This document shows, piece by piece, positions 16,462 through 59,538 of a DNA stretch of 64,000 nucleotides. The notes under the pieces are model-generated. The model saw only the letters and a program-made list of their open reading frames with translations, was not told the origin of the DNA and did not search any database. How positions within the stretch are numbered: the first letter of the stretch is position 1; every line of letters begins with the position of its first letter. Location: the NCBI RefSeq assembly GCF_032917945.1, contig NZ_CP136624.1, positions 2,728,001 to 2,792,000 of the forward strand, written 5' to 3'. The position numbers were made by a program, and so were the translations under genes. The DNA comes from Bradyrhizobium sp. sBnM-33 (GTDB taxonomy: Bacteria; Pseudomonadota; Alphaproteobacteria; Rhizobiales; Xanthobacteraceae).

Positions 16462-17334
16462 ATGTATAGTAGCAGAATCACTGGTTCTTCCAGCCAAGTT
16501 CCAAGTGTGAGCCAGGCCGATGAATCGGAGCTATCAGCAGATGGCCGTAGGTTTACGGAAACGCTTACGGCGCCTGGTTCGTCCTCGGGGGCGACACGGC
16601 CGTACTCCCTCATTTCCGAACCTCCCATCGATGAGATTGACAGGGAGTCATTCAGGGAAGAACTGAGAAATTTTTACGGTAAGGACATCAAGCACATAGC
16701 CGATAATCCGCAAGAATACTCGGATTTTGTTTCCGAAAAGGCTGAGCGCACAGCGATGGTCGCCAGAGCCGGATCCACCGTAGAGGATTCGGACCATGCG
16801 CGATATTTCAGCTATCAATTGGGTGACAAGAGTGTCGGGCTTCTAAAGACCGAAGGTCGACGTCGCATGGGAGGGGAGGCGTGGGAGCGGCACTTTCCTG
16901 GGCGAAAACACGTCTCGTCCGTTGTCGGTCTCCGGGTTACTCATCCGCTCGTCGAGAACGCAGGCGATGTTCTGCTGGAACATCAACTTCGGCTTGACGG
17001 CAAGCGGGCGTTGGTCATGTCGCGTCCTGCCACGGATGAGGTGAAGCCCCGTCTAGAGCAGATGGGTTTTGTTCACGTAGGGGACAATGAAGATGACAAT
17101 GAATATGTGCTTGACCCTAGGCAGCATCCCGACAAGTGGACGCTGAACGATGAGGGAAAATGGCAGCGGGCGGACAAGCCTCGGCTATATCTCTCCAAGG
17201 TTGAGAGTAGTGATGACGAAAACGAAGGAAGTGTCGAGAAATATTCGGGCGAAGAATACATCGAAACGGATTCGTCGGGGGACGATCCTTCTTGGTACTT
17301 CGACCGGCTCAATTTAGGCCCGGGGACTGGCTAG
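16462..17334 (+). CDS. nopP: NopP-type type III effector (copy 1)
   Basis: The 290-residue product starts MYSSRITGSSSQVPSVSQAD, a Ser-rich secretion-signal-like leader. It contains the NopP core: ARYFSYQLGDKSVGLLKTEG, FPGRKHV, RVTHPLVENAGDVLLEHQLR and VLDPRQHPDKWTLNDEGKWQR. NopP is secreted by the rhizobial T3SS, phosphorylated in plant cells, and alters nodulation in a host-dependent way. An acidic tail of about 40 residues (SSDDENEGSVEK ... SSGDDPSWY) sets it apart from the second copy at 34.3 kb. The start at 16462 is chosen because it matches the other copy and lies downstream of the tts box; the longer open frame from 16321 starts upstream of the box. Confidence 0.85.
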   Translation: MYSSRITGSSSQVPSVSQADESELSADGRRFTETLTAPGSSSGATRPYSLISEPPIDEIDRESFREELRNFYGKDIKHIADNPQEYSDFVSEKAERTAMVARAGSTVEDSDHARYFSYQLGDKSVGLLKTEGRRRMGGEAWERHFPGRKHVSSVVGLRVTHPLVENAGDVLLEHQLRLDGKRALVMSRPATDEVKPRLEQMGFVHVGDNEDDNEYVLDPRQHPDKWTLNDEGKWQRADKPRLYLSKVESSDDENEGSVEKYSGEEYIETDSSGDDPSWYFDRLNLGPGTG

Positions 17335-34338: not shown

Positions 34339-35205
34339 CTACATAAAGTCATCGTCGTCCCAATCCGGCATGGTATCTGGGGCACGCTGGGCCCCCCTGG
34401 TTTCACTGCCGTCACTGGGTTCAGCTTTAGAAAGATACAATTGAGGCTTGTTTTTCCGCTGCCATTCGCCGTCATCATTCTTCGTCCACTTGTCGGAATG
34501 CCGGGTAGGGTCAAGCACCATCATCGAGTCACTCACCTCAACAAAACCCAACGCCGCTGCGCGGGCTTTCGCGTCGTCGTTGACAGCATGAGAGAGGAGC
34601 AAAGGCCGTTCGCCGTCGAGCCGAAGCTGATGTTCCAACAGAATATCGCCTGCGTTCTCGACAAGGGGATGAGTAACCCGAAAATCCACCGTGGATGTGA
34701 GTTCGGTCCGTCCGGGAAACTGTTCCCGCCAGCGCGCGCGTGCCTTTTCCTCTTTGAACACATCACTCATGCTAGCTCCGCCTTCCGTTCGCAGAAGTCC
34801 AACACTCTTGTTGCCTAGCTGATAGCTGAAATAGCGTGCGTTTTCCGAACCAGATTTCCTGCCGTGGTCATAAGCAACTTGTGCCGTGCGTTCGGCTTTC
34901 GAGGATATGGGAAGCGAGTATCGCTGTGGTTTCGCGGCGATATGCTGGATTTCATCGCCAAAACAGTCCTTCACGTTCTCCTCGAATGAAGACCTTGTGA
35001 TCTCCACCACAGGAGGTCGCCGAACGAGGGAGTACGAGGGTGTTGCTCCCGAAGACGAGCTAGCGCTCGGCGCCGCTATGTGCATCCCAGCAAACATGTC
35101 CGCAAAGCGCTGGCTGTCTGCATCAGATTGCGTGTGGTTGGTGGCGGATTGTCTCATTTCATCAGTGTCGGAAGCACCGGGTAAGCTATTGATTCGGCCA
35201 TACAT
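34339..35205 (-). CDS. nopP: NopP-type type III effector (copy 2)
   Basis: The 288-residue product begins MYGRINSLPGASDTDEMRQS and carries ARYFSYQLGNKSVGLLRTEG, FPGRTELTSTVDFRVTHPLV, ENAGDILLEHQLRLDGERPL and VLDPTRHSDKWTKNDDGEWQ. It is collinear with copy 1 but closer, from memory, to the classical NopP of Bradyrhizobium japonicum. The tail lacks the long acidic repeat of copy 1 and ends MPDWDDDDFM. A tts box lies 71 bp upstream. It lies beyond the end of the rhcV operon on the same strand. Confidence 0.88.
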   Translation of the reverse strand: MYGRINSLPGASDTDEMRQSATNHTQSDADSQRFADMFAGMHIAAPSASSSSGATPSYSLVRRPPVVEITRSSFEENVKDCFGDEIQHIAAKPQRYSLPISSKAERTAQVAYDHGRKSGSENARYFSYQLGNKSVGLLRTEGGASMSDVFKEEKARARWREQFPGRTELTSTVDFRVTHPLVENAGDILLEHQLRLDGERPLLLSHAVNDDAKARAAALGFVEVSDSMMVLDPTRHSDKWTKNDDGEWQRKNKPQLYLSKAEPSDGSETRGAQRAPDTMPDWDDDDFM

Positions 35206-35974: not shown

Positions 35975-38092
35975 TTAGCCGTTTGTGGCATGCAGGTTGC
36001 GTTGTTCTCCTGCCGGAGCTTTTTCCTTGGGACCTGTAAGCTTGAGCGACCCCACCGGCTGGACCGTGAAATCGGAGGCGAGATCCTGATAAGACAGAAC
36101 AGGAAGATCGAACCCGTTGCGGGTGAGAAAGCCGCGGACGAAGCGCCTGATATCCAGCGAACTCAGGATGACGGGCTGGCTCTGACCTGGTGGCATGCCT
36201 GAATGAATCTGGCGCAGTTGCGACAGCAACATCTCGCTATGCCGGTCCTCCAGCGCGAGGTACGGCCCGACGGCGGTCTCTCGGACCGCACTGCGAATCA
36301 CATCCTCAGTTTCACGTTCGACGATAAAGGCGGGCAGAACACGGTGAGCGTTGGCATGGCGATAGCAGATTTGCCGTCTTAGGCCGGAGCGGACATATTC
36401 GGTGAGCAGGACGGCGTTCTGCTCGCGTTCGCTCCATTCGGCGAACGCTTCCAAGACCAGCCGGGTGTTACGAATCGGGATGCCCTCGTCGAGCAGGCGA
36501 CGCAGGACATCGGCGATCCGGGGAACTGGAGTCGTGCGTAGCACTTCCTTCACCAGGTCGGCATATTCCTGCTCCATCCGGGCGAGCAATTGTCGCGTCT
36601 CTTGAATGCCTACCAAGCGCTGCGCATATCGCGTCAGTACGGAACTGACGCGCAGGGCTATGATTTCGCTCGGACGGTGATGCCCGATCCCGGCCGCTTT
36701 GAGAGCCGGTGCATGGCTCTGTTCGATCCAGATCCGGTCGGTGTCTGGATCTTGCCGATGCGGGATGCCGCTCAATTCAATGTTCGCTCGGTCGTCGGTG
36801 AGCGCGAGCTGCGTCGGATCCACCCGATCCCGTTCAACCGGTACTCCTTCCACATCTAGCCTAAACTCGGATTGGGCCAAACGTTGATCGACCTGGACTG
36901 GAATGCGGGGAATCGTGATGCCAAGATCGGCTGAGACCAGTGCCGAAATGCGAGCGATGTGCTGCTCAACTTCCTCTCTGTCAATCGCGTTTACCAGGTT
37001 AGGTGCAAAGAATACCGCGACCGGAAGCGCCTCCGCAGGTATGGTTTGCCGTTGAGCCTGCGCTGGATTTGAAGTCGGAGTACTAACGTTAGCGCTCGTC
37101 TTGGAGCCCGTGTTCGCGCCTTGCACACCGCCTTTGACATAGCTCGTCCCGGCAAAAAGTGCGGCCAGCATGAGAAACGGGGGCAAAGGGAAACCTGGTA
37201 TGAGCCCCATGAGAAGTAAGACGCCGGCCGCTAGCCGCAGTGCCTGGGTACTGGCCGTGAGTTGGTTGATGATATCGGCACCAAGCTTGAGCTTGGAAGG
37301 CCCATTCACACGTGTGACGATGGTTGCGGCCGTAACCGACAGCAGGAGCGCCGGAATCTGAGAAATCAACGCATCGCCGATGGTGAGCAGCGTATATTGG
37401 TGCAACGCCTCATCGACGGACATGCCCTTGGAGAGCAGTCCGATGCTGATTCCTCCCAGCATGTTGATGCAAATGACTATGAGTCCGGCAATGGCATCCC
37501 CTTTCACGAACTTCATGGCGCCATCCATCGCACCGTGAAGTTGGCTTTCTCGCTCCAGTGAGGCTCGCCGGCTGCGTGCCTCGTGCTGATCGATATGACC
37601 GTTGCGTAGCTCCGCGTCGATAGCCATCTGCTTGCCCGGCAGAGCGTCGAGCGTGAATCGTGCCGAGACTTCAGCAACGCGCTCGGCGCCCTTGGCGAGA
37701 ACCATGAACTGCACCATGGTCACGATCAAAAATATAACAATGCCGACCGCGATGTTCCCTGATATCACGAACTCACCGAAGGTGTGAATGATGCTGCCGG
37801 CGTCTCCTTCAGCGAGAATCAGCCGGGTTGTCGCGATGGTCAGCGCCAGACGAAAAACGGTAGAGATCAGGATGACGCCGGGCAAGGACGAGAAATCCAG
37901 TGGCGTACTGAGATACAGTGCAACCATCAGCAGCAATACGGCAAAACCCAGATTGAAGCCGATCAGCATGTCGACCACGACGATCGGCATCGGCATGATC
38001 ATCATTGCGATTGCCAGAAGCAGCATGAACGCGACCATGAAATCCGGGTGGAATGGCGCGCGCACGATAAGCTTACGAAGGAGGTTTGCCAT
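35975..38092 (-). CDS. rhcV: RhcV, T3SS export gate protein (SctV/FlhA family)
   Basis: The 705-residue protein has an N-terminal membrane domain with about eight spans (LLLAIAMMIMPMPIVVVDML, GFAVLLLMVALYLSTPLDFS, and others). It carries the family signature TVFRLALTIATTRLILAEGD and the cytoplasmic FIPEP loop region MDGAMKFVKGDAIAG. After about residue 340 comes the large cytosolic domain that forms the nonameric ring binding chaperone-effector complexes. Length and motifs are normal. It lies in the nopC operon with short spacing to its neighbours. Confidence 0.95.
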   Translation of the reverse strand: MANLLRKLIVRAPFHPDFMVAFMLLLAIAMMIMPMPIVVVDMLIGFNLGFAVLLLMVALYLSTPLDFSSLPGVILISTVFRLALTIATTRLILAEGDAGSIIHTFGEFVISGNIAVGIVIFLIVTMVQFMVLAKGAERVAEVSARFTLDALPGKQMAIDAELRNGHIDQHEARSRRASLERESQLHGAMDGAMKFVKGDAIAGLIVICINMLGGISIGLLSKGMSVDEALHQYTLLTIGDALISQIPALLLSVTAATIVTRVNGPSKLKLGADIINQLTASTQALRLAAGVLLLMGLIPGFPLPPFLMLAALFAGTSYVKGGVQGANTGSKTSANVSTPTSNPAQAQRQTIPAEALPVAVFFAPNLVNAIDREEVEQHIARISALVSADLGITIPRIPVQVDQRLAQSEFRLDVEGVPVERDRVDPTQLALTDDRANIELSGIPHRQDPDTDRIWIEQSHAPALKAAGIGHHRPSEIIALRVSSVLTRYAQRLVGIQETRQLLARMEQEYADLVKEVLRTTPVPRIADVLRRLLDEGIPIRNTRLVLEAFAEWSEREQNAVLLTEYVRSGLRRQICYRHANAHRVLPAFIVERETEDVIRSAVRETAVGPYLALEDRHSEMLLSQLRQIHSGMPPGQSQPVILSSLDIRRFVRGFLTRNGFDLPVLSYQDLASDFTVQPVGSLKLTGPKEKAPAGEQRNLHATNG

Positions 38093-50235: not shown

Positions 50236-50934
50236 TCATCTCTGGCCCGGCGCAGGCTCGCGCACGATGCTGTCCTGACGCGGCGCGTCGGAAGAATAGG
50301 GGGCTTCCGGTCGTCCATCGCGAACGACCGTGGTTGAGGAGCCACGAAATAACTTCAGCACCGATTCCCGCGACTGCTTTTCGACGGCAGCGTGCGGCCG
50401 CGCCTGCGCCTCCGCTACAAGGCCGTTGAGCGTTTGGTCTAAGAGCGCGATGAAGCGTGGTGGACCAGAAACTAGGACGAGGCCATCTCCTGGTGCCGGT
50501 CTCACAAGATAGCGCTCGTCGGAGATATTGAGTGCATCGAGGGCCGCTTTGAATGCATCGAAGCTGATCGGCTTCAACACAAGCAGACGACTTTGCGCCT
50601 CATTTGCAGCAGATACATACAGCACGAGCCCATCGTAGTACCATTGAAGATTGTAGAGATTGGTCAAACGGTCCAGGAACTCGCGCGGTGGCAGATCTGG
50701 CATGCGCCCGCGAATCCGACCCCTCACCTCCGCGCTGACGTTCACTCTGATATTGAGGTTGTTACCGAATTCCAGCAGTGCGGCAGACAGGTCCTGATCC
50801 AGAACCGTGTAGCTATAAGGTGCCGAAGGCAGCGAGAGCGGAGCCCCAAACGCCGTGAGTACCCCGGAGCAAAGGAAAACTCCTGCGCCCGCAACTCGGT
50901 TCAAAATGTTCAGGATCGTGCGTCGGCTTAGCAT
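50236..50934 (-). CDS. rhcC1: RhcC1, N-terminal half of the split secretin (NolW)
   Basis: The 232-residue product has a signal-like start (MLSRRTILNILNRVAGAGVF) and the secretin N0/N1 domains: YSYTVLDQDLSAALLEFGNN, LPPREFLDRLTNLYNLQWYY and VLKPISFDAFKAALDALNIS. The membrane-spanning secretin domain is absent. Rhizobial T3SSs use a split secretin with RhcC1 (NolW, about 234 residues) providing the periplasmic part. I chose the ATG at 50934 over a TTG nine codons upstream. It is divergent from nopB. Confidence 0.85.
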   Translation of the reverse strand: MLSRRTILNILNRVAGAGVFLCSGVLTAFGAPLSLPSAPYSYTVLDQDLSAALLEFGNNLNIRVNVSAEVRGRIRGRMPDLPPREFLDRLTNLYNLQWYYDGLVLYVSAANEAQSRLLVLKPISFDAFKAALDALNISDERYLVRPAPGDGLVLVSGPPRFIALLDQTLNGLVAEAQARPHAAVEKQSRESVLKLFRGSSTTVVRDGRPEAPYSSDAPRQDSIVREPAPGQR

Positions 50935-51029
50935 TCCCAAGTCCCTTCGGCCTGAGAACAAGTATTAAGACTTCGCCCAAATTGGAAGCCAAGCGTGATC
51001 TTTAAAATGGCCTTATGGCTCGCATGTTC

Positions 51030-51057
51030 GTCAGCTTGCGGTCAGCTGGCCTCTTTA
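51030..51057 (+). promoter_or_regulatory. tts box of the nopB-rhc operon
   Basis: GTCAGCTTGCGGTCAGCT is followed by GGCCTCTTTA. It lies 55 bp before nopB and drives the main apparatus operon. Confidence 0.8.
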
Positions 51058-51111: not shown

Positions 51112-51636
51112 ATGACACCTTCGATCACGCTAGGCGCTACGCCGATCTCTCTGAAGCCTAACGACGGTCTGTCCGGGCTCTGCCAGCCGGCAGCCATCGG
51201 CCAGCAGTGCCAGTTTCAGCAGACTCTTCTGCATGTCGCTTCGACATCAGACGCTGCCTCCTCAGTTACCGATAGAGCAGCGTCCGTTCCTGCGGTGTCA
51301 GAGGTTCAGCGTGCAGCAGTGCAGGCGAGCCCGCCTGGCGAGCGCGTGCTCCAGGCTCTCTCTTCGATGTATCGGAGCAATCCCATTCCTTCTGCAACGA
51401 GCGGCGGTGTGACCGCCATTTCGAAGACCGTTCAACCTGGGCCGGCCGCTCAGCCGCTTTCACGGTCGCAGCTAGTCGGGGCGAGCCCCGCGGGCAAGCC
51501 GGAAGGGGTGCTCGACTTCGACGCGATGGTTGCGGGTCTGCGGGACGTTTACAAGGGTGTCGTCGAGGTTTCGCTTGTGTCCAAGAGCACCAGCGCCGTC
51601 AGCTCATCTTTGAACAAATTGCTATCGGCGGGCTGA
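51112..51636 (+). CDS. nopB: NopB, extracellular T3SS component (NolB)
   Basis: The 174-residue product begins MTPSITLGATPISLKPNDGL and ends LVSKSTSAVSSSLNKLLSAG, the latter being the conserved NopB end. NopB is secreted, associates with the pilus and is needed for secretion of other Nops. It is the first gene of the operon, with rhcJ starting 6 bp after its stop. Size and position agree with NolB of other rhizobia (about 164 residues). Confidence 0.85.
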   Translation: MTPSITLGATPISLKPNDGLSGLCQPAAIGQQCQFQQTLLHVASTSDAASSVTDRAASVPAVSEVQRAAVQASPPGERVLQALSSMYRSNPIPSATSGGVTAISKTVQPGPAAQPLSRSQLVGASPAGKPEGVLDFDAMVAGLRDVYKGVVEVSLVSKSTSAVSSSLNKLLSAG

Positions 51637-51641
51637 GTTCG

Positions 51642-52508
51642 TTGACGTCTGCTTTCATCTATGGACAAAACGGCCATGCCCGCCTATCCGGTCAGTGGTT
51701 GCGTGTTTTTGCCGTGCTATCGCTTCTCCTCCCCTTGATTGGCTGTAAGGCCGATCTCTACACCAAAGTGCAGGAGCGCGAGGCCAATGAGATGCTTGCT
51801 CTCCTGCTTAGCAAGGGAGTCGATGCGGTCCGTGTTACTGCCAAGGACGGGACCAGCACGATCCAGGTCGAAGAGAAGCAGCTAGCCTTTTCGATTGAGC
51901 TGCTAAATCTCGAAGGGTTGCCGCGCCACCCTTTCAAGAACCTCGGCGAGGTGTTCAAAGGATCGGGCCTGGTTGCCTCGCCGATCGAGGAGCGCGCCCG
52001 CTACGTTTATGCCCTGAGCGAAGAATTGTCGCGCACGATTAGCGATATCGACGGCGTCATATCCGCGCGTGTCCACGTTGTTTTGCCAAAAAATGATCTA
52101 TTGCGCCAGGACACGATGCCGTCCTCAGCGTCGGTGTTCATTCGACATAACTCCAATGCAAAGCTCTCGCTCCTGCAACCGCAGATCAAGATGCTGGTCA
52201 CCAACAGCATCGAGGGCCTATCCTATGACAAGGTGGTGGTGGTCTTTGTGCCGGTTGAGCGGGCTCCGCTTGAGCAGCCTGCCCCGCGAGCTGCGTCCGC
52301 TCAGTCGACCAAATCCATTTCAGACCCGCTACTTGCGGCCGGTATCGGAGGGGGCGGCGCTGCGATTGGCCTTCTGTGCTACATATTCCTGGGCTCTCGT
52401 ATGCATCAGCGCGCCCAGCAGTCGCGCGCGCGATCCAGACTTGGCAACCGTTCGAACACGCCCGCTATCCCGCCTCCCGGTAAAAAGATCACCTCCGACA
52501 AGGCATAG
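51642..52508 (+). CDS. rhcJ: RhcJ, inner-ring lipoprotein (SctJ; NolT)
   Basis: The 288-residue protein has a lipoprotein signal with LIGC at about residues 32-35. It carries the YscJ/FliF ring domain (LYTKVQEREANEMLALLLSK, YALSEELSRTISDIDGVISA, RVHVVLPKNDLLRQ) and a carboxy-terminal membrane span (LLAAGIGGGGAAIGLLCYIF). It forms the inner-membrane ring together with RhcD. The start is a TTG at 51642. Confidence 0.93.
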   Translation: MTSAFIYGQNGHARLSGQWLRVFAVLSLLLPLIGCKADLYTKVQEREANEMLALLLSKGVDAVRVTAKDGTSTIQVEEKQLAFSIELLNLEGLPRHPFKNLGEVFKGSGLVASPIEERARYVYALSEELSRTISDIDGVISARVHVVLPKNDLLRQDTMPSSASVFIRHNSNAKLSLLQPQIKMLVTNSIEGLSYDKVVVVFVPVERAPLEQPAPRAASAQSTKSISDPLLAAGIGGGGAAIGLLCYIFLGSRMHQRAQQSRARSRLGNRSNTPAIPPPGKKITSDKA

Positions 52509-52518
52509 GAGTGCGCAG

Positions 52519-53157
52519 ATGCCCATACCGCTGCCATGCTCCGGTTCTCATACGATGTCCGAATCGACCTCTGAGGGGCTGCGCGAGCTTGCTGCCTCGA
52601 CCCATCTGACCCGATTTGCTGCCCGTCTTGACGGGCGGCTGTCGGCTTCGACTTTGGTCCGGCTACAGAAGAGCTCAAGGCTGCAGGTAAGACTTGCTGA
52701 AATGCTGCTTGGTAATGAAATGGACTCCAACGGCCGTAACTGGGGAACTGATCTTCTGCTCGGCCATGATCCGAATAGGGCTGCTTTGCTTGCCGGCAGT
52801 ATCTGGCATGCTGGCTCGCTCCTAAAGCTCGTCTCAAAGCAGCATCTCGCGATTCTGCTCGGGCGTATCGGGGCAGAAGCGCACGCTTTCGGTATCCGGA
52901 ACTTGGCCAGCGCGGTCGCAATCACCGCTACCGCTGATCCGGAGCAACTTTCGCAACAGATTGAACACGATGGCCATGCCTGCCTAGGTGCTTGGCTCGA
53001 CGAAGCCTCGGCACTTGATCGCACGCGCGTGCTGTTACGCTTGCCCATGGGCACTGCTGCCGAGAATCCAGCGGCCGAACACCGCAATGCCGCGGGCCCA
53101 GTGCTTTCCTTGGTGATAGCCCATTTGTCGAGGGAGACGCCACGGCATGACAGCTGA
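52519..53157 (+). CDS. nolU: NolU, T3SS operon protein (SctK-like)
   Basis: The 212-residue product starts after AGGAG and includes LRELAASTHLTRFAARLDGR, LLKLVSKQHLAILLGRIGAE and RVLLRLPMGTAAENPAAEHR. Its length equals that of NolU in NGR234. The position between rhcJ and nolV corresponds to SctK (the sorting-platform connector) in other systems. It overlaps nolV by 11 bp. A longer open frame extends upstream over rhcJ, but this is a shadow. Confidence 0.85.
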   Translation: MPIPLPCSGSHTMSESTSEGLRELAASTHLTRFAARLDGRLSASTLVRLQKSSRLQVRLAEMLLGNEMDSNGRNWGTDLLLGHDPNRAALLAGSIWHAGSLLKLVSKQHLAILLGRIGAEAHAFGIRNLASAVAITATADPEQLSQQIEHDGHACLGAWLDEASALDRTRVLLRLPMGTAAENPAAEHRNAAGPVLSLVIAHLSRETPRHDS

Positions 53158-53770
53158 TGACCCAGCGCCGCCGGTGGCCCCCGAGATACGGCCGCTCGGG
53201 CCTCTCATATCGGCGGCCGAGATCGGGATCTGGTGCGATGCCGTAGAGGCGCGCGCGGCTGCCGAGCGGCATCTGCAACGCGTTCGCGGCTGGGGACGGA
53301 CAGCTTATAAGCGGGAGCGGGCGCGCGGCTGTGCGGATGGCTTCAAGAGCGGCGCCGAGGAAATGTCTCGGCTGATTGCACAGGCTGCTTCCGCACTTGC
53401 GCAGCGAAAAGCCATTCTGGAGCAGGAGTTGCCGCAGCTCGTCATGGAGATCGTGAGCGATCTTCTGGGCGCGTTTGATCCAGGCGAGATGTTGGTGAGG
53501 ACCGTTCGTAACGCGATCGAGCAAAAATATGGTAGCGCGGAAATTTGCCTTCATGTCTCTCCTCTGAAAGCCGATGCGCTAGCGCGCGAGTTCGCTACGT
53601 GCGATGGACAGGAGGGCCGGCCGAAAGTGCGGGTTGCTCCGGATCCGGCTCTAACGACAGAGCAGTGCGTGTTGTGGAGCGAATTTGGCAATGTAGACAT
53701 TGGAGTTGCCGCGCAGCTGCGGGCTCTACGTCTTGGCCTGGGTTTGCCATCAAAGGAAGACGGGCCATGA
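53147..53770 (+). CDS. nolV: NolV, stator protein of the export ATPase (SctL)
   Basis: The 207-residue product has the helical core of SctL/FliH (FKSGAEEMSRLIAQAASALA, RKAILEQELPQLVMEIVSDL, VRTVRNAIEQKYG) and the carboxy-terminal SctL domain (CVLWSEFGNVDIGVAAQLRA). SctL dimers bind the ATPase RhcN and link it to the sorting platform. It overlaps rhcN by four bases (ATGA). Confidence 0.88.
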   Translation: MTADDPAPPVAPEIRPLGPLISAAEIGIWCDAVEARAAAERHLQRVRGWGRTAYKRERARGCADGFKSGAEEMSRLIAQAASALAQRKAILEQELPQLVMEIVSDLLGAFDPGEMLVRTVRNAIEQKYGSAEICLHVSPLKADALAREFATCDGQEGRPKVRVAPDPALTTEQCVLWSEFGNVDIGVAAQLRALRLGLGLPSKEDGP

Positions 53771-55116
53771 CCACATCAGCCACCGATGCGGCGGGAGAGA
53801 GGAATCTGCACGCCGCGCTGTCGTCTCTGAAATCTACAGCAAAGCATATCGACACGCGTGCTGTACGAGGGCGGATCACACGGGCGGTCGGCACCTTGCT
53901 CCATGCCGTCTTGCCAGAGGCGCGTATAGGGGAGCTTTGCCTGTTGCAGGATCCCCGCACCGGATGGTCGCTCGAGGCCGAGGTGATCGGCCTATCGCAA
54001 GATGGGGTATTGCTCACTCCCATTGGTGACATGGCGGGCTTATCCAGCCGAGCAGAAGTGGTCGCGACCGGACGAATGCATGAAGTTCCGGTCGGCCCCG
54101 ATTTGCTTGGCCGGGTGATCGACAGCTTCGGCCGTCCGATCGACGGAAAGGGTCCAATCAACGCCGCTCAAACTCGCCCGCTGCGCGGCAAGGCCCCCAA
54201 CCCCATGACAAGGCGCGGTATCGAGCGAACATTGCCACTCGGCGTCCGTGTCTTGGATGGGCTTCTAACATGTGGCGAGGGGCAGCGGATCGGCATCTAC
54301 GGAGACCCAGGGTGCGGTAAGTCGACGCTCCTGTCGCAGATCGTAAAAGGCGCGGCTGCCGACGCCACCATAGTCGCGTTGATCGGTGAGCGCGGTCGTG
54401 AAGTGCGGGAATTCATCGAGCAGCACCTTGGTGAGGCAGCGCTTCGCCGCACCGTCGTTGTCGTTGAGACCTCCGATCGCTCGGCAATGGAACGAGCGCA
54501 ATGCGCTCACATGGCGACGGCAGTCGCCGAATATTTTCGTGATGAAGGACTTCGCGTCGTCCTGATGATGGACTCATTGACGCGCTTTAGCCGCGCCATG
54601 CGCGAAATTGGCCTTGCGGCAGGAGAGCCGCCGACGCGGCGCGGCTTTCCGCCATCGGTTTTTGCGATGCTTCCTGGCCTGTTGGAGCGTGCCGGCATGG
54701 CCGAGCGCGGCTCGATCACGGCCTTCTATACTGTGCTTGTCGAAGGCGACGGCTCGGGTGATCCAATCGCCGAAGAATCACGAGGCATTCTTGATGGCCA
54801 CGTTGTTCTCTCACGCCTTTTGGCTGCGCGCGAGCATTTTCCAGCTATTGACGTATTGTCAAGCCGCAGCCGCGTGATGAATGCGGTCGTCTCTGTGTCG
54901 CATCGAAAGGCGGCTTCCTTCTTCCGTGATCTGCTCTCCCGCTACGGCGAGGCCGAGTTCTTGGTGAAGGTTGGCGAATATAAACAAGGCAGTGATCCTC
55001 TGACAGACCGGGCAATCAATTCGATCGAGGAGTTGCGGAAATTCCTGCGTCAGGGCGGAGACGAGGCGTCAAGCTTTGAGGAGACGGTCACATGGATGTC
55101 ACGTCTGACCGCGTGA
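53767..55116 (+). CDS. rhcN: RhcN, T3SS export ATPase (SctN)
   Basis: The 449-residue protein has the Walker A motif GDPGCGKST at residues 179-187, GERGREVREF (the catalytic-Glu region near 208-217), Walker B VVLMMDS near 264-270, and the ATPase family signature PPTRRGFPPSVFAMLPGLLE. The carboxy end ELRKFLRQGGDEASSFEETV is normal. It uncouples chaperones from effectors and powers unfolding at the export gate. The start is the ATG in ATGA shared with nolV. Confidence 0.96.
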   Translation: MTTSATDAAGERNLHAALSSLKSTAKHIDTRAVRGRITRAVGTLLHAVLPEARIGELCLLQDPRTGWSLEAEVIGLSQDGVLLTPIGDMAGLSSRAEVVATGRMHEVPVGPDLLGRVIDSFGRPIDGKGPINAAQTRPLRGKAPNPMTRRGIERTLPLGVRVLDGLLTCGEGQRIGIYGDPGCGKSTLLSQIVKGAAADATIVALIGERGREVREFIEQHLGEAALRRTVVVVETSDRSAMERAQCAHMATAVAEYFRDEGLRVVLMMDSLTRFSRAMREIGLAAGEPPTRRGFPPSVFAMLPGLLERAGMAERGSITAFYTVLVEGDGSGDPIAEESRGILDGHVVLSRLLAAREHFPAIDVLSSRSRVMNAVVSVSHRKAASFFRDLLSRYGEAEFLVKVGEYKQGSDPLTDRAINSIEELRKFLRQGGDEASSFEETVTWMSRLTA

Positions 55117-55622
55117 ATCGCGTCCATGCCTCGAAATTGCGGCTAGTGAAGGACATGAGACAGCGGAGCGCCCTTCGTGAGGTGTACAACATGGAGGCCA
55201 AGCGCCGCACCGCGCTTCAAGCGGTGGAACAAGCTGTCCGGGATCTTGCAACGGCCGAGAAAAACCAAGCGGCGCTAGAAGCGGAGCTTTACCGAGAACT
55301 GGCATCTTTTGATTCGCTATCTGTCGAAGAGCTCGATCGTCGCTGTCACATCGTCATTGGACGGCTCAAAACTGAGATCGCAGGAGCACGCCGAACGCTT
55401 GAGGAAGCGCGCGCCGCTCAAGAGCGTGCCGAGACGGCGGTCTTCGATGCGCGGACCACTTTGACCAAGTGCTCGGCGGCGAGTCACAAATGGCAGAAAA
55501 TTGAAGGCGACGTTCAGCGCGCGAGTGATGCCCATTCAGAGGCGGAAGCCGAGATGGAGGCCGATGATGAGGTTTTGCTTCGGTATCGCAGTGGTTCGCG
55601 TACTCACACGGCTAGCTACTGA
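55092..55622 (+). CDS. RhcO, coiled-coil stalk protein (SctO; y4yJ-like)
   Basis: The 176-residue protein is almost entirely helical with long charged heptads (MEAKRRTALQAVEQAVRDLA, TAEKNQAALEAELYRELASF, ARRTLEEARAAQERAETAVF). This is the pattern of SctO/FliJ central-stalk proteins that bind inside the ATPase ring. It overlaps rhcN by 25 bp and occupies the y4yJ position of NGR234. Confidence 0.75.
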   Translation: MDVTSDRVNRVHASKLRLVKDMRQRSALREVYNMEAKRRTALQAVEQAVRDLATAEKNQAALEAELYRELASFDSLSVEELDRRCHIVIGRLKTEIAGARRTLEEARAAQERAETAVFDARTTLTKCSAASHKWQKIEGDVQRASDAHSEAEAEMEADDEVLLRYRSGSRTHTASY

Positions 55623-55627
55623 ATCTG

Positions 55628-56737
55628 ATGGCTTCTTCTATGCTAGGGAAGGCGCCTTGTCTTGTAGACGCGCCTGTGACCATGGCTACGGGTGAACAAT
55701 CGGGATTTAAACCGGCGCTAACCCTGTCCCCTGCGGTCGTCTCTTGGCTCAACGAGATCGCGGCTGCCCGCAAGCCTCTGCAAAGCCGTCTCCGCGATAA
55801 GCCGCTATCCGTACGGATGGAACGGCTGGTCTGGGAGCCGGAGCCGTGTGCCGTATCGATGCTCGACTGCGTTTGGGCCATCGGACATGAAACAATCATC
55901 TTATCGTTGGCCCGTCCGGTTGTAGAAGGGCTGATCGCGACGGTGCAAAGTGAGCTTGGCCTACCTGCCGAGCCCACTCGTTCGCTCCTCGTCGAATTTG
56001 CACTCGATCCGTTGCTCGATCAACTAGAGGGTCTGACACAACAGAAGTTGCAGCTGATCTGTTTGAGCGAAGCAACGGCTCGGGGTCCTTATCTGGAGCT
56101 CGAAATCACCTACCGCCCATTCAAGGGAAAAGCGCGCCTGCTCCTGTTCTCACCTCTCGATGGGTCAGTTCCACCCGCGTTTCGGGCGTTAGGCGGACTG
56201 CTCAGGCAGCTGCCGCGAGAGGCACGCCAGCTTCCCCCAGAATTGCCTGTCATCGTTAAGGGAGAGATCGGTTCGCTCCGTGCGACGGTTGCGCTGCTAG
56301 GGAAAGCAAATGCAGGAGACGCTCTATTGCCGGACGTAATACCCTTGGCCCGTGGCCAAGCCATCCTCAACGCGGGAACCTTATGGGCTCCGGCACATGT
56401 TGCAGAGGATCGCTTGATCGTGCGAGGGGCATTCCGCCTCCAACCACATCCCCTGGAGTGTGCACATATGATGACTCAATCCGAAAAACCCCGGCCGCCC
56501 TCTGAAAGTGATCTCGACAACATCGAGATTACTCTTGTTTTCGAATGCGGCCGCTGGACTGTCGCACTCGGAGCCTTGAGGGATATCAGCGAGGGACATG
56601 TGTTCGAACTTGGCCGGCCGCTCGACGGACCGGTTGATATCCTTGCTAACGGCCGCCGCATAGGCCGCGGGGACATCGTAAGCATCGGCGGGGAGCTTGG
56701 CGTCAGGTTGCGGGGCAGGTTGGCCGTCAATGACTGA
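55628..56737 (+). CDS. rhcQ: RhcQ, sorting-platform (C-ring) protein (SctQ)
   Basis: The 369-residue protein ends in a SpoA domain (NIEITLVFECGRWTVALGAL, FELGRPLDGPVDILANGRRI, GRGDIVSIGGELGVRLRGRL), the hallmark of SctQ/FliN. The amino-terminal part has the looser YscQ-type region (PLSVRMERLVWEPEPCAVSM). It forms pods below the export gate that select effectors. It overlaps rhcR by eight bases. Confidence 0.92.
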   Translation: MASSMLGKAPCLVDAPVTMATGEQSGFKPALTLSPAVVSWLNEIAAARKPLQSRLRDKPLSVRMERLVWEPEPCAVSMLDCVWAIGHETIILSLARPVVEGLIATVQSELGLPAEPTRSLLVEFALDPLLDQLEGLTQQKLQLICLSEATARGPYLELEITYRPFKGKARLLLFSPLDGSVPPAFRALGGLLRQLPREARQLPPELPVIVKGEIGSLRATVALLGKANAGDALLPDVIPLARGQAILNAGTLWAPAHVAEDRLIVRGAFRLQPHPLECAHMMTQSEKPRPPSESDLDNIEITLVFECGRWTVALGALRDISEGHVFELGRPLDGPVDILANGRRIGRGDIVSIGGELGVRLRGRLAVND

Positions 56738-57395
56738 CATTCAACCGGGAATTCTTGGACTCCTTGCGCTCACGGCCGGCCTTGGCCTGCTGGCGTTCCT
56801 AGTCGTAACAAGCACAGCGTTCATAAAGGTGTCCGTCGTGCTCTTCCTCGTTCGCAACGCGCTCGGGACTCAATCTATCCCACCGAACCTCGTTCTATAT
56901 GGCGCGGCGCTGATCCTGACAGTTTTCATTAGCGCGCCAGTGATTGAACAGACCTATAATCGCCTTTCTGCGCCACAACTCCGCTACCAAACGGTCGATG
57001 ATTGGCTGAGCGCCGCAAAGGAGGCGCAGGAGCCGCTGCGCGGGCATCTGAAGAAGTTCACCGCTGACGAGCAGCGCCGCTTCTTCTTGGCTTCAACCGA
57101 ACAGGTCTGGCCCGAGGACATGCGCGGCAACGTGAGCGCCGATGACCTGGTCATTCTGGTGCCATCTTTCCTAATTTCAGAACTCAAGCGTGGCTTCGAA
57201 ATTGGTTTTCTTCTCTATCTGCCCTTTATCACCATCGATCTGATTGTAACGACCATCTTGATGGCCATGGGTATGTCGATGGTTTCGCCAACGGTGATAT
57301 CCGTGCCGTTTAAGCTGTTTCTATTCGTCTCAATCGACGGCTGGTCGCGGCTCATGCACGGGCTGGTGCTCAGCTACACAACACCGGGAGGCTGA
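56730..57395 (+). CDS. rhcR: RhcR, export gate protein (SctR/FliP)
   Basis: The 221-residue membrane protein starts MTDIQPGILGLLALTAGLGL and carries the family motifs STAFIKVSVVLFLVRNALGT, SFLISELKRGFEIGFLLYLP and VTTILMAMGMSMVSP. Four spans are visible. SctR5-SctS4-SctT1 form the entry portal. The ATG at 56730 overlaps the rhcQ stop; an upstream GTG-type start would extend into rhcQ. Confidence 0.95.
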   Translation: MTDIQPGILGLLALTAGLGLLAFLVVTSTAFIKVSVVLFLVRNALGTQSIPPNLVLYGAALILTVFISAPVIEQTYNRLSAPQLRYQTVDDWLSAAKEAQEPLRGHLKKFTADEQRRFFLASTEQVWPEDMRGNVSADDLVILVPSFLISELKRGFEIGFLLYLPFITIDLIVTTILMAMGMSMVSPTVISVPFKLFLFVSIDGWSRLMHGLVLSYTTPGG

Positions 57396-57397
57396 GC

Positions 57398-57682
57398 ATG
57401 GATGAGGCGAGTATTCTCACTCATATGAGCCGGTCACTTGTGATCTTCATGATCTGGGTTCTGCCACCGCTTATCGCGGCGGTCGTTGTCGGCTTGGTCG
57501 TCGGCATCATCCAGGCGGCAACGCAGCTTCAGGATCAAACTTTGCCACTGACTGTGAAGCTTCTTGTCGTTGTCGCGGTGATCGCTTTGTTCTCTCCAGT
57601 GCTCAGCGCCGCGCTGATCAAGGAAGCAGAGCAGGTATTTACCGACTTTCCCGCACTCACAGCAAGTATTAGCCGACGTTAG
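57398..57682 (+). CDS. rhcS: RhcS, export gate protein (SctS/FliQ)
   Basis: The 94-residue protein has two membrane spans (LVIFMIWVLPPLIAAVVVGL; VKLLVVVAVIALFSPVLSAA) with VVGIIQAATQLQDQTLPLTV between them, as in SctS. It begins 2 bp after the rhcR stop. Confidence 0.95.
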   Translation: MDEASILTHMSRSLVIFMIWVLPPLIAAVVVGLVVGIIQAATQLQDQTLPLTVKLLVVVAVIALFSPVLSAALIKEAEQVFTDFPALTASISRR

Positions 57683-58504
57683 ATGAACGTCCCCTCATTC
57701 ACCGAGACGCAAACTCTGATCCAGGAGGCGATCGAACTCGTGCTCGCAGCCGGGCTCGCGGCAGCCCGCGCCCTTGGCATTATGTTGGTCCTTCCCGTGT
57801 TTACGCTGCCGCGCATTAGGGGGCTGATCCGCGGCTGCGTGACCTTTGCGATGGGACTGCCATGCCTGTTGCAGATCAGGCACGGCTTGCAGTCGCTGGA
57901 TGAGGGCTCACGACTGATCAGTCTCACGCTGCTCGGTTTGAAGGAGGTGTTCGTCGGCCTGCTCATCGGCTTTTTGCTCAGTATTCCGTTATGGAGCATC
58001 CAGGCAGTGGGTGAGATCATCGATACCCAAAGGGGGATTACGAACCCTGTTGCTTCCGATGATCCAGCCACGCGTGGCCAGGCTTCGGCGACGGCGGTTT
58101 TACTCGGTACCACTGCGATTTCGATTTTCGTTCTAGCCGGGGGATTGGAGAATATGATTAGGGGCCTTTATGGCAGCTATTTGATCTGGCCCGTGTATCG
58201 GCTGATGCCTAGCTTGACCGTGCAAGGCGCGATGGCATTTCTGGGGCTTCTCGGTCACATCATGTATACGGCGCTACTGGTCTCTGGCCCCGTGTTGGCA
58301 TTCCTGCTGCTACTCGATGTATCGGTCATGATACTCGGGCGGTTTGCGCCGCAACTCAAACTGAACGATGTCTCTCCCACCATGAAGAATCTGGCGTATG
58401 GGATAATCATGGTAAGTTACGCCACCTTCCTCGTCGAATATATGGGATCGGAGATCAGTCAGTCCAACACCGTGCTCGAGTTGTTCAAGAACCTCCTTAA
58501 ATGA
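57683..58504 (+). CDS. rhcT: RhcT, export gate protein (SctT/FliR)
   Basis: The 273-residue membrane protein has six or so spans (VLAAGLAAARALGIMLVLPV, GLKEVFVGLLIGFLLSIPLW and others) and the GEIIDTQRG motif of SctT/FliR. It immediately follows rhcS and overlaps rhcU by four bases (ATGA). Confidence 0.95.
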   Translation: MNVPSFTETQTLIQEAIELVLAAGLAAARALGIMLVLPVFTLPRIRGLIRGCVTFAMGLPCLLQIRHGLQSLDEGSRLISLTLLGLKEVFVGLLIGFLLSIPLWSIQAVGEIIDTQRGITNPVASDDPATRGQASATAVLLGTTAISIFVLAGGLENMIRGLYGSYLIWPVYRLMPSLTVQGAMAFLGLLGHIMYTALLVSGPVLAFLLLLDVSVMILGRFAPQLKLNDVSPTMKNLAYGIIMVSYATFLVEYMGSEISQSNTVLELFKNLLK

Positions 58505-59538
58505 GTGGCTCGAGCGAAGAGAAGAAGCTCCCCCCCACTCCCAAGAAGCTAAAAGATGCGCGCAAGAAAGGGCAGAGTCCGCGCAGCACCGATTTGGTCA
58601 GCGCAGTCAGTGTTTGCGCCGGTTTCGGCTGCCTCTGGTTAAGAGCGGGCCTCATTGAGACCAAGTGGTATGAAACGGTACGGCTAATCGACAAACTGCA
58701 GGGGCAGCCGTTCACAAGCGCGGTCCAGCAGGCGCTGGGCGGCTTGATCGAACTGTTTCTTGCGGCCGTTGGTCCATTCCTCGGGGCCGGTGTTGCCGCT
58801 GGTATTCTAGCGGGAGTCCTGGCCAACGGTGGATTAAACGTCTCTTTCGAGTCCTTAAAGCCGAAATTCGAGAAATTGGATCCCATGAAGGGGCTCAAGC
58901 GGATTGCGTCTAAGCGGTCGCTCATTGAACTCTCGAAGTCGCTTCTTAAGGTGTGCGTTCTCGGCGCAAGCTTGCTATTCACGGTTATCGCAAGTTGGAA
59001 GGCGCTGGTATACTTGCCAACCTGCGGTAGGGGATGTCTCAACTTCGTGTTCACTGAGATCAAATTGCTGACCGAAATTGCTGCCGGTGCTTTTCTGATC
59101 GCCGGATTGGCCGATCTTCTTATCCAGCGCTGGTTGTTTTTACAGGACATGCGCATGACGGAGACCGAGGCCAAACGCGAGTCCAAAGAACAGCAGGGCA
59201 ATCCGCAGGTCAAACGAGAACACCGTCGCCTTCGTCAGGAGACGGCGAACGAGCCTCCGCTTGGCGTGCATCGCGCTACATTGATAGTGACAGGACAAGC
59301 GATCTTGATTGGGCTTCGCTACATTCGTGGCGAGACCGGCGTGCCGATCGTGGTTTGCCGTGGTGAGGGCGAACTTGCCTCACGACTGCTTTCTGAGGCG
59401 CAGTCGCTGCGCCTCAGCATTGTCCAGGATCCAGCCTTGGCGCGGCAGCTCATCCGGAATGCCAGGCTGGGCAACGTCGTTCCTGGGAAGTGCTTTGAAG
59501 GAGTTGCGAGAGCGCTCTATTCCGCCGGGCTGGTCTAG
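58501..59538 (+). CDS. rhcU: RhcU, export switch protein (SctU) lacking the NPTH motif
   Basis: The 345-residue protein starts MSGSSEEKKLPPTPKKLKDA, the usual SctU/FlhB opening, followed by four membrane spans (for example FLGAGVAAGILAGVLANGGL). The cytoplasmic linker EAKRESKEQQGNPQVKREHR and ANEPPLGVHRATLIV are typical. The self-cleavage site NPTH, expected right after ATLIVT, is replaced by GQAIL at residues 265-269, followed by IGLRYIRGETGVPIVV. In SctU proteins, cleavage between Asn and Pro lets the export apparatus switch substrate. Without it, RhcU probably stays uncleaved. The frame is otherwise intact. Confidence 0.93.
   Translation: MSGSSEEKKLPPTPKKLKDARKKGQSPRSTDLVSAVSVCAGFGCLWLRAGLIETKWYETVRLIDKLQGQPFTSAVQQALGGLIELFLAAVGPFLGAGVAAGILAGVLANGGLNVSFESLKPKFEKLDPMKGLKRIASKRSLIELSKSLLKVCVLGASLLFTVIASWKALVYLPTCGRGCLNFVFTEIKLLTEIAAGAFLIAGLADLLIQRWLFLQDMRMTETEAKRESKEQQGNPQVKREHRRLRQETANEPPLGVHRATLIVTGQAILIGLRYIRGETGVPIVVCRGEGELASRLLSEAQSLRLSIVQDPALARQLIRNARLGNVVPGKCFEGVARALYSAGLV

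Follow-up and report, generated by a model that had tools for sequence, protein, structure and literature searches.

In the self-cleaving SctU/FlhB proteins, mutational work has tied an NPTH motif, the self-cleavage site described as universal, to the order of type III export. In Xanthomonas, according to the available sections of PMC3040844, NPTH is needed both for cleavage and for binding of the SctP protein HpaC to the C-domain of HrcU, yet HrcU Y318D, which is poorly cleaved, secretes late substrates without HpaC. In Yersinia, YscU A268F suppresses a yscP null mutation (excerpt of PMC3504009). Late secretion is lost in EscU N262A and in HrcU N266A of Erwinia (excerpts of PMC3189125 and PMC4875606, respectively). 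For the rhizobial (Rhc) systems, the accessible portion of Gazi et al. (2012, PMC3574062) gives the hrpP/yscP-like gene, which usually lies between hrpO and hrcQ, as missing in all Rhc subgroups, and that of Tampakaki (2014, PMC3973906) describes SctP as not identified in rhizobia; SctP proteins are stated to vary too much to be analysed by similarity (extract of PMC3459982). Extracts from three further reports concern activity: induced NGR234 releases several Nops (PMC10970691), an rhcN mutant of Bradyrhizobium sp. DOA9 is altered in nodulation (PMC5611442), and the T3SS of B. elkanii USDA61, whose RhcU we have not singled out among our loci, is described as functional (PMC7291247). The accessible parts of PMC3973906, PMC8780523, PMC9569860, PMC3459982, PMC3040844 and PMC1084347 mention no Rhc exception to NPTH, and we found no report of one in the literature searched, which lay outside subscription journals; an earlier notice is possible.

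We have compared the T3SS genes, and their order, in a 64,000-nucleotide stretch (the window) from Bradyrhizobium sp. sBnM-33 with those of NGR234; percentages below refer to that comparison. On the plus strand are nopB/nolB (51112..51636; 40% to NolB), rhcJ (SctJ; 51642..52508; 60%), nolU (52519..53157, the start being approximate; 64%), rhcL/nolV (SctL; 53147..53770; 66%), rhcN (SctN ATPase; 53767..55116; 81%, and 643 bits to TIGR02546), y4yJ (SctO-like; 55092..55622; 47% to Y4yJ, with 25.4 bits to the YscO model PF07321, under its cut-off of 28.8), rhcQ (SctQ; 55628..56737; assigned from the ORF, profile and NGR234 comparison), rhcR (SctR; 56730..57395; 78%), rhcS (SctS; 57398..57682; 72%), rhcT (SctT; 57683..58504; 59%) and rhcU (SctU; 58501..59538). 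The minus strand carries rhcC1, a short secretin gene (50236..50961; 68% to NolW by tblastn), and rhcV (SctV; 35978..38092; 72%), both free of stops. NGR234 NopX had no match in window positions 1-64000 at E 1e-3. The other apparatus genes tested were present, and the remark in the initial annotation that they have open frames holds for all those found in the window. Using a tts-box consensus that we presume to be the right one, we counted 10 sites in the window fitting a loosened pattern against 1.45 expected, and 7 with at most 3 mismatches against 0.25 expected; the site 5' of nopB (51030..51047, plus strand), with 2 mismatches to the loosened pattern, is a weaker one. Sites of this kind also stand upstream of each of two nopP-like genes (16528-17214, plus strand; 34399-35205, minus strand), the products of which are 51% and 55% identical to NGR234 NopP.

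The rhcU frame is complete (345 aa), has no stops, and encodes a protein 58% identical to NGR234 RhcU. Residues 6-339 match Pfam PF01312 (Bac_export_2; FlhB/HrcU/YscU/SpaS) with 259.2 bits, against a cut-off of 24.4; the SctU equivalog TIGR01404 gives 259.3 bits, below its curated cut-off of 358, and the NPTH-bearing SctU of plasmid pNK6b, at 355, likewise falls slightly under it. Residues 258-274 read RATLIVTGQAILIGLRY, and NPxH is absent from them. In alignments, the place of NPTH is occupied by the turn GQAIL (residues 265-269; 59293..59307, plus strand), near the beginning of the cytoplasmic switch domain (CC/PTH domain; residues 259-345; 59275..59535, plus strand); the corresponding position of an FlhB-type protein from this genome is occupied by NPTH. 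The replacement of NPTH by GQAIL, which the initial annotation had located within 59289..59310, is thus confirmed, as is its statement that one residue has been lost without disruption of the ORF. The stretch that opens with the conserved Ala and closes with the Tyr of xLRY is 16 residues long in the window RhcU, as compared with 17 in 89 of 92 NP-bearing sequences that match the same pattern and 15 in the other three. Since both NPTH and the Asn required for self-cleavage are missing, the sequence indicates that RhcU is most likely uncleavable.

A sequencing or assembly error at this site can be dismissed, because a protein 100% identical to the window RhcU is encoded in a separate assembly of a different Bradyrhizobium species (L004, G039:C37), and because 14 more loci, at 91-99% identity, have GQAIL (11), GEAIL (2) or GETIL (1). 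Nothing was found that favours an artefact, the same state recurs in many independent records, and we regard that explanation as having a negligible chance. The identity of RhcU between species also suggests transfer of a symbiosis island between them.

We then asked how far the state extends. Each of the 195 Bradyrhizobium genomes searched yielded a hit, either to RhcU or to one of its paralogues. Every listed match of at least 61% identity was fetched as RhcU, which gave 92 loci, that of the window included, and NPTH occurs in none of them. It is absent from L031 of genome G188 as well. Nine further Rhc-like loci (L034-L042; 37-47% identity) also lack it without exception. In contrast, NPTH is kept in 13 of 13 SctU of other T3SS types from the genus (30-33% identity; L043-L053, L116 and L117) and in the four FlhB-type genes fetched (L001, L118-L120), which are named by type and not by flagellar context. 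In the protein database, the best 120 listed of 1331 RhcU relatives are all without NPTH, as are all 109 new proteins listed when a distant relative served as the query. With an Rhc-III protein as query, NP was found in 82 of 86 more distant proteins listed (P0157-P0242); of the remainder, P0157 and P0158 belong within the NPTH-less clade described below, and P0237 and P0238 were taken as a fragment and a garbled end, respectively. A contig scan found 396 relatives, of which 80 loci were kept; 76 lack NPTH, one of these (L160) being apparently frameshifted at the site and unsafe, and NP is present in loci from Photorhabdus (L207), Endozoicomonas (L208), Halochromatium (L209, NPTR) and Allochromatium (L210). 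Aligned together, 575 rows, among them near copies and places fetched twice, comprise 420 without NP, 114 with NPxH, 3 with another NP form, and 38 that end before or soon after the site. The His of the motif is replaced, with Asn-Pro kept, in L209, P0235 and P0236, which have NPTR, NPTQ or NPTE.

Named systems fall on the same side as the window. NPTH is absent from NGR234 RhcU on pNGR234a (L125, GTAVL) and from the SctU on pNGR234b (L126), from RhcU of Bradyrhizobium sp. DOA9 (L164, GRATL) and Bradyrhizobium sp. ORS 285 (P0032), and from SctU of Pseudomonas amygdali (L135) and Rhizobium johnstonii (L233). The Rhc-I proteins of NGR234, DOA9 and ORS 285 are of the same type as the window RhcU, with Gly at the turn, and at this site differ from it only in the variable residues round that Gly. 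By comparison, the SctU of a beta-proteobacterial Mimosa isolate, Paraburkholderia caribensis (L235), which was not placed in the tree, keeps NPTH; it is our sole SctU from the beta-rhizobial side, and we confine our claim to the alpha-Rhc family, a label which for the NPTH-less members from Acetobacteraceae, Paracoccus, Sulfitobacter and Klebsiella is our own.

For phylogenetic placement, we used only the part of the protein before the motif site, in 155 rows: 150 that are less than 62% identical to each other and five added SctU. We excluded the short L003 and nine rows judged to be fragmentary, garbled or near-duplicate. In the resulting quick tree, which has long branches and an outgroup of our own choosing, the NPTH-less SctU group together in a single clade, with 81 rows (SH-aLRT 98), the NP-bearing L207-L209 all fall outside it, and a single gain or loss of NP suffices if rows that have no switch domain are scored as no NP. 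The window RhcU groups with NGR234 RhcU and L182 (SH-aLRT 95), in agreement with its placement in Rhc-I. This tree places the NPTH change in the ancestor of a large clade, as a single event, and we read its direction as loss, given that FlhB and the sampled SctU of other T3SS types carry NPTH.

Within the same clade, the Rhc-III proteins of Rhizobium and Sinorhizobium resemble RhcU in having neither NPTH nor room for SctP, but unlike RhcU they are without the switch domain altogether. When SctU of Rhizobium phaseoli (L127:9650-10447; 265 aa) was used as the query, in a search that could find relatives of 146-464 aa, all 34 listed clusters of at least 40% identity (P0123-P0156) proved to be 219-279 aa long and to end before the site, the shortest (P0149, 219 aa) probably being a fragment. 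Nine such domain-less rows nest inside the NPTH-less clade. Judged by these predicted proteins, Rhc-III SctU has lost the entire switch domain. Searches by tblastn with six C-domains for a split-off domain in two Rhc-III loci (L127 and L234) gave only short matches (best E 0.008), which lie on the strand opposite to, or just before, a secretin-like ORF and were taken as chance; neither locus holds a convincing remnant.

In the window RhcU, the switch domain keeps its fold in the AlphaFold model (pLDDT 88-95), and the modelled turn that replaces the NPTH loop is two residues long. Structural matching with VIA-align 2 gave cleavage-dead EscU and CT091 as the best matches. Such cleavage-dead proteins (EscU N262A/N262D, YscU N263A and the CT091 mutant) remain single, uncleaved chains; they are laboratory-made, and the EscU forms impair effector delivery, whereas the NPTH-less state of RhcU is natural and inherited. 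The domain is under purifying selection, with dN/dS of 0.15 for the membrane part of the protein, 0.22 for the switch domain and 0.36 for the turn. Among Rhc-I proteins, the only conserved turn residue is Gly (67 of 67), and a single Asn occurs in the 67 x 5 turn positions; some Rhc-II-like proteins (P0093, L154 and L155) have Asp-Pro in the loop. The positions of known suppressors were only partly consistent with an explanation through those residues. At the YscU A268 position, 63 of 68 Rhc-I proteins have Leu and 20 of 20 NPTH-bearing T3SS rows have Ala, but Ala is also found in 67 of 232 NPTH-less proteins; that of HrcU Y318 is Ile in the window RhcU and Leu in 12 of the 20 NPTH-bearing rows, and is not diagnostic.

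The partner protein was approached through the SctN-SctR interval. This measures 1423-1738 bp in 67 NPTH-less loci, two of which (L205 and L224) are one place, with 1617 bp in the window; it is 1016 bp in two Rhc-III loci and 2138-2871 bp in six NP loci. The set was formed without L213-L223, 11 stretches round Bradyrhizobium NPTH-bearing SctU in which the search missed SctN, SctR or both. In the window, the rhcQ ORF begins 5 bp behind that of y4yJ, and the usual SctP slot is therefore empty; the intervals of the other NPTH-less loci measured likewise leave no room for SctP in that slot. As controls, sctP is annotated beside sctQ in two Hrp2-type loci, and an HrpP-domain gene lies between SctN and SctR in an Hrp1-type locus. 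On plasmid pNK6b of B. diazoefficiens NK6 (L128), which carries a Ysc-like T3SS with the NPTH-bearing SctU mentioned above, insertion-sequence genes lie between the YscO and SctQ genes. Two profiles provided no test of SctP: the Pfam HpaP model was silent in 27 genomes and in every control as well, and Flg_hook (PF02120) matches in 27 of 27 genomes but, by the listed coordinates, never less than 100 kb away from a listed T3SS SctU of that contig, for NPTH-bearing and Rhc systems alike. The sBnM-33 genome encodes two Flg_hook proteins, both distant from the T3SS. In that genome, at L228 (G000:C1:4647000-4651500), a FliK-like Flg_hook ORF precedes a 214-residue open frame that matches FlhB in its C-terminal part only and that we take to be FlhX-like.

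From these observations, we favour, with a probability of roughly 0.7, the reading that RhcU is a normal, working alpha-Rhc SctU which stays uncleaved, and that export proceeds without the SctP/NPTH switch. The NPTH self-cleavage loop would have been replaced in the common ancestor of the clade, and on the branch leading to the window a tight beta-hairpin turn, in which a Gly is invariant, would have taken its place. In the cell, the export-switch domain would then remain one chain. With SctP, the ruler through which this domain is acted upon, likewise missing from the alpha-Rhc family, as had been reported, pilin, translocon and effectors would be exported without a cleavage- and SctP-dependent change from early to late substrates. 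Either the uncleaved domain may be fixed in an export-permissive shape, or no order may be imposed. The state of the Rhc proteins resembles the situations of HrcU Y318D and YscU A268F, which argues, short of proof, for uncleaved export that is not ordered by the switch; the likeness to Y318D lies in the combination of poor cleavage with late export in the absence of an SctP protein, and the difference is that Y318D is a laboratory point mutation in a protein that otherwise has NPTH. A stronger form, in which alpha-Rhc injectisomes have dismantled the switch, with NPTH loop and SctP gone, the domain also gone in Rhc-III, SctU late-permissive and export unordered, we hold to be somewhat less probable than its opposite. 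Both losses map to one branch, and their association is hence one event, a single coincidence rather than statistical proof.

The initial annotation had instead suggested a quiet loss or change of function in this strain. The late-secretion defects of the EscU and Erwinia HrcU mutants cited above speak for such a loss. Against it stand the absence of NPTH from all 92 RhcU loci of the genus, the open apparatus genes with a tts-box-like site 5' of the operon, and the selection on RhcU; the NPTH-less proteins of NGR234 and of DOA9, both with T3SSs active in experiments, supply the contrary case that the initial annotation had itself named and refute it, and we consider a strain-specific defect very improbable. 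What stands from that earlier reading is the absence of the motif and of the cleavage Asn; the implied uniqueness gave way to a state common to all relatives of the same type examined, and the loss of function to the evidence of active systems. It is also conceivable that RhcU is still cleaved, whether at a different bond or by a different protease, and that the switch operates as usual through other chemistry, as the retained and selected fold and the Asp-Pro of some Rhc-II-like loops might hint. However, an Rhc-I turn that conserves only Gly, with almost no Asn, and that is modelled as merely two residues long makes this unlikely. A better, though still doubtful, candidate is a switch retained by other means: an SctP analogue that has escaped recognition and works on the uncleaved domain, timing of expression in the TtsI regulon, or chaperones. 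The constraint on the Rhc-I switch domain implies that it still does something, and the reported variability of SctP proteins would allow an analogue to escape notice, but no gene fits the usual SctP slot and Rhc-III lacks the domain entirely. If the stronger form given above holds, the rule of a universal NPTH cleavage that effector export requires would apply to the other families alone. A large natural clade that has neither NPTH nor an SctP in the usual position, and that contains systems active in nodulation, lets one ask directly whether an injectisome can work without the switch; models of the T3SS derived from pathogens should not be transferred to rhizobia unchecked.

Two minor observations concern individual loci. 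Genome G080 has two Rhc-I RhcU copies (L067 and L078), one of which is interrupted by a TAG stop. On an IncF plasmid of Klebsiella aerogenes (L129, NZ_CP099261.1), an Rhc-like T3SS with an NPTH-less SctU is accompanied by an HrpK-domain gene; two plasmids of K. pneumoniae are listed with this T3SS as well.
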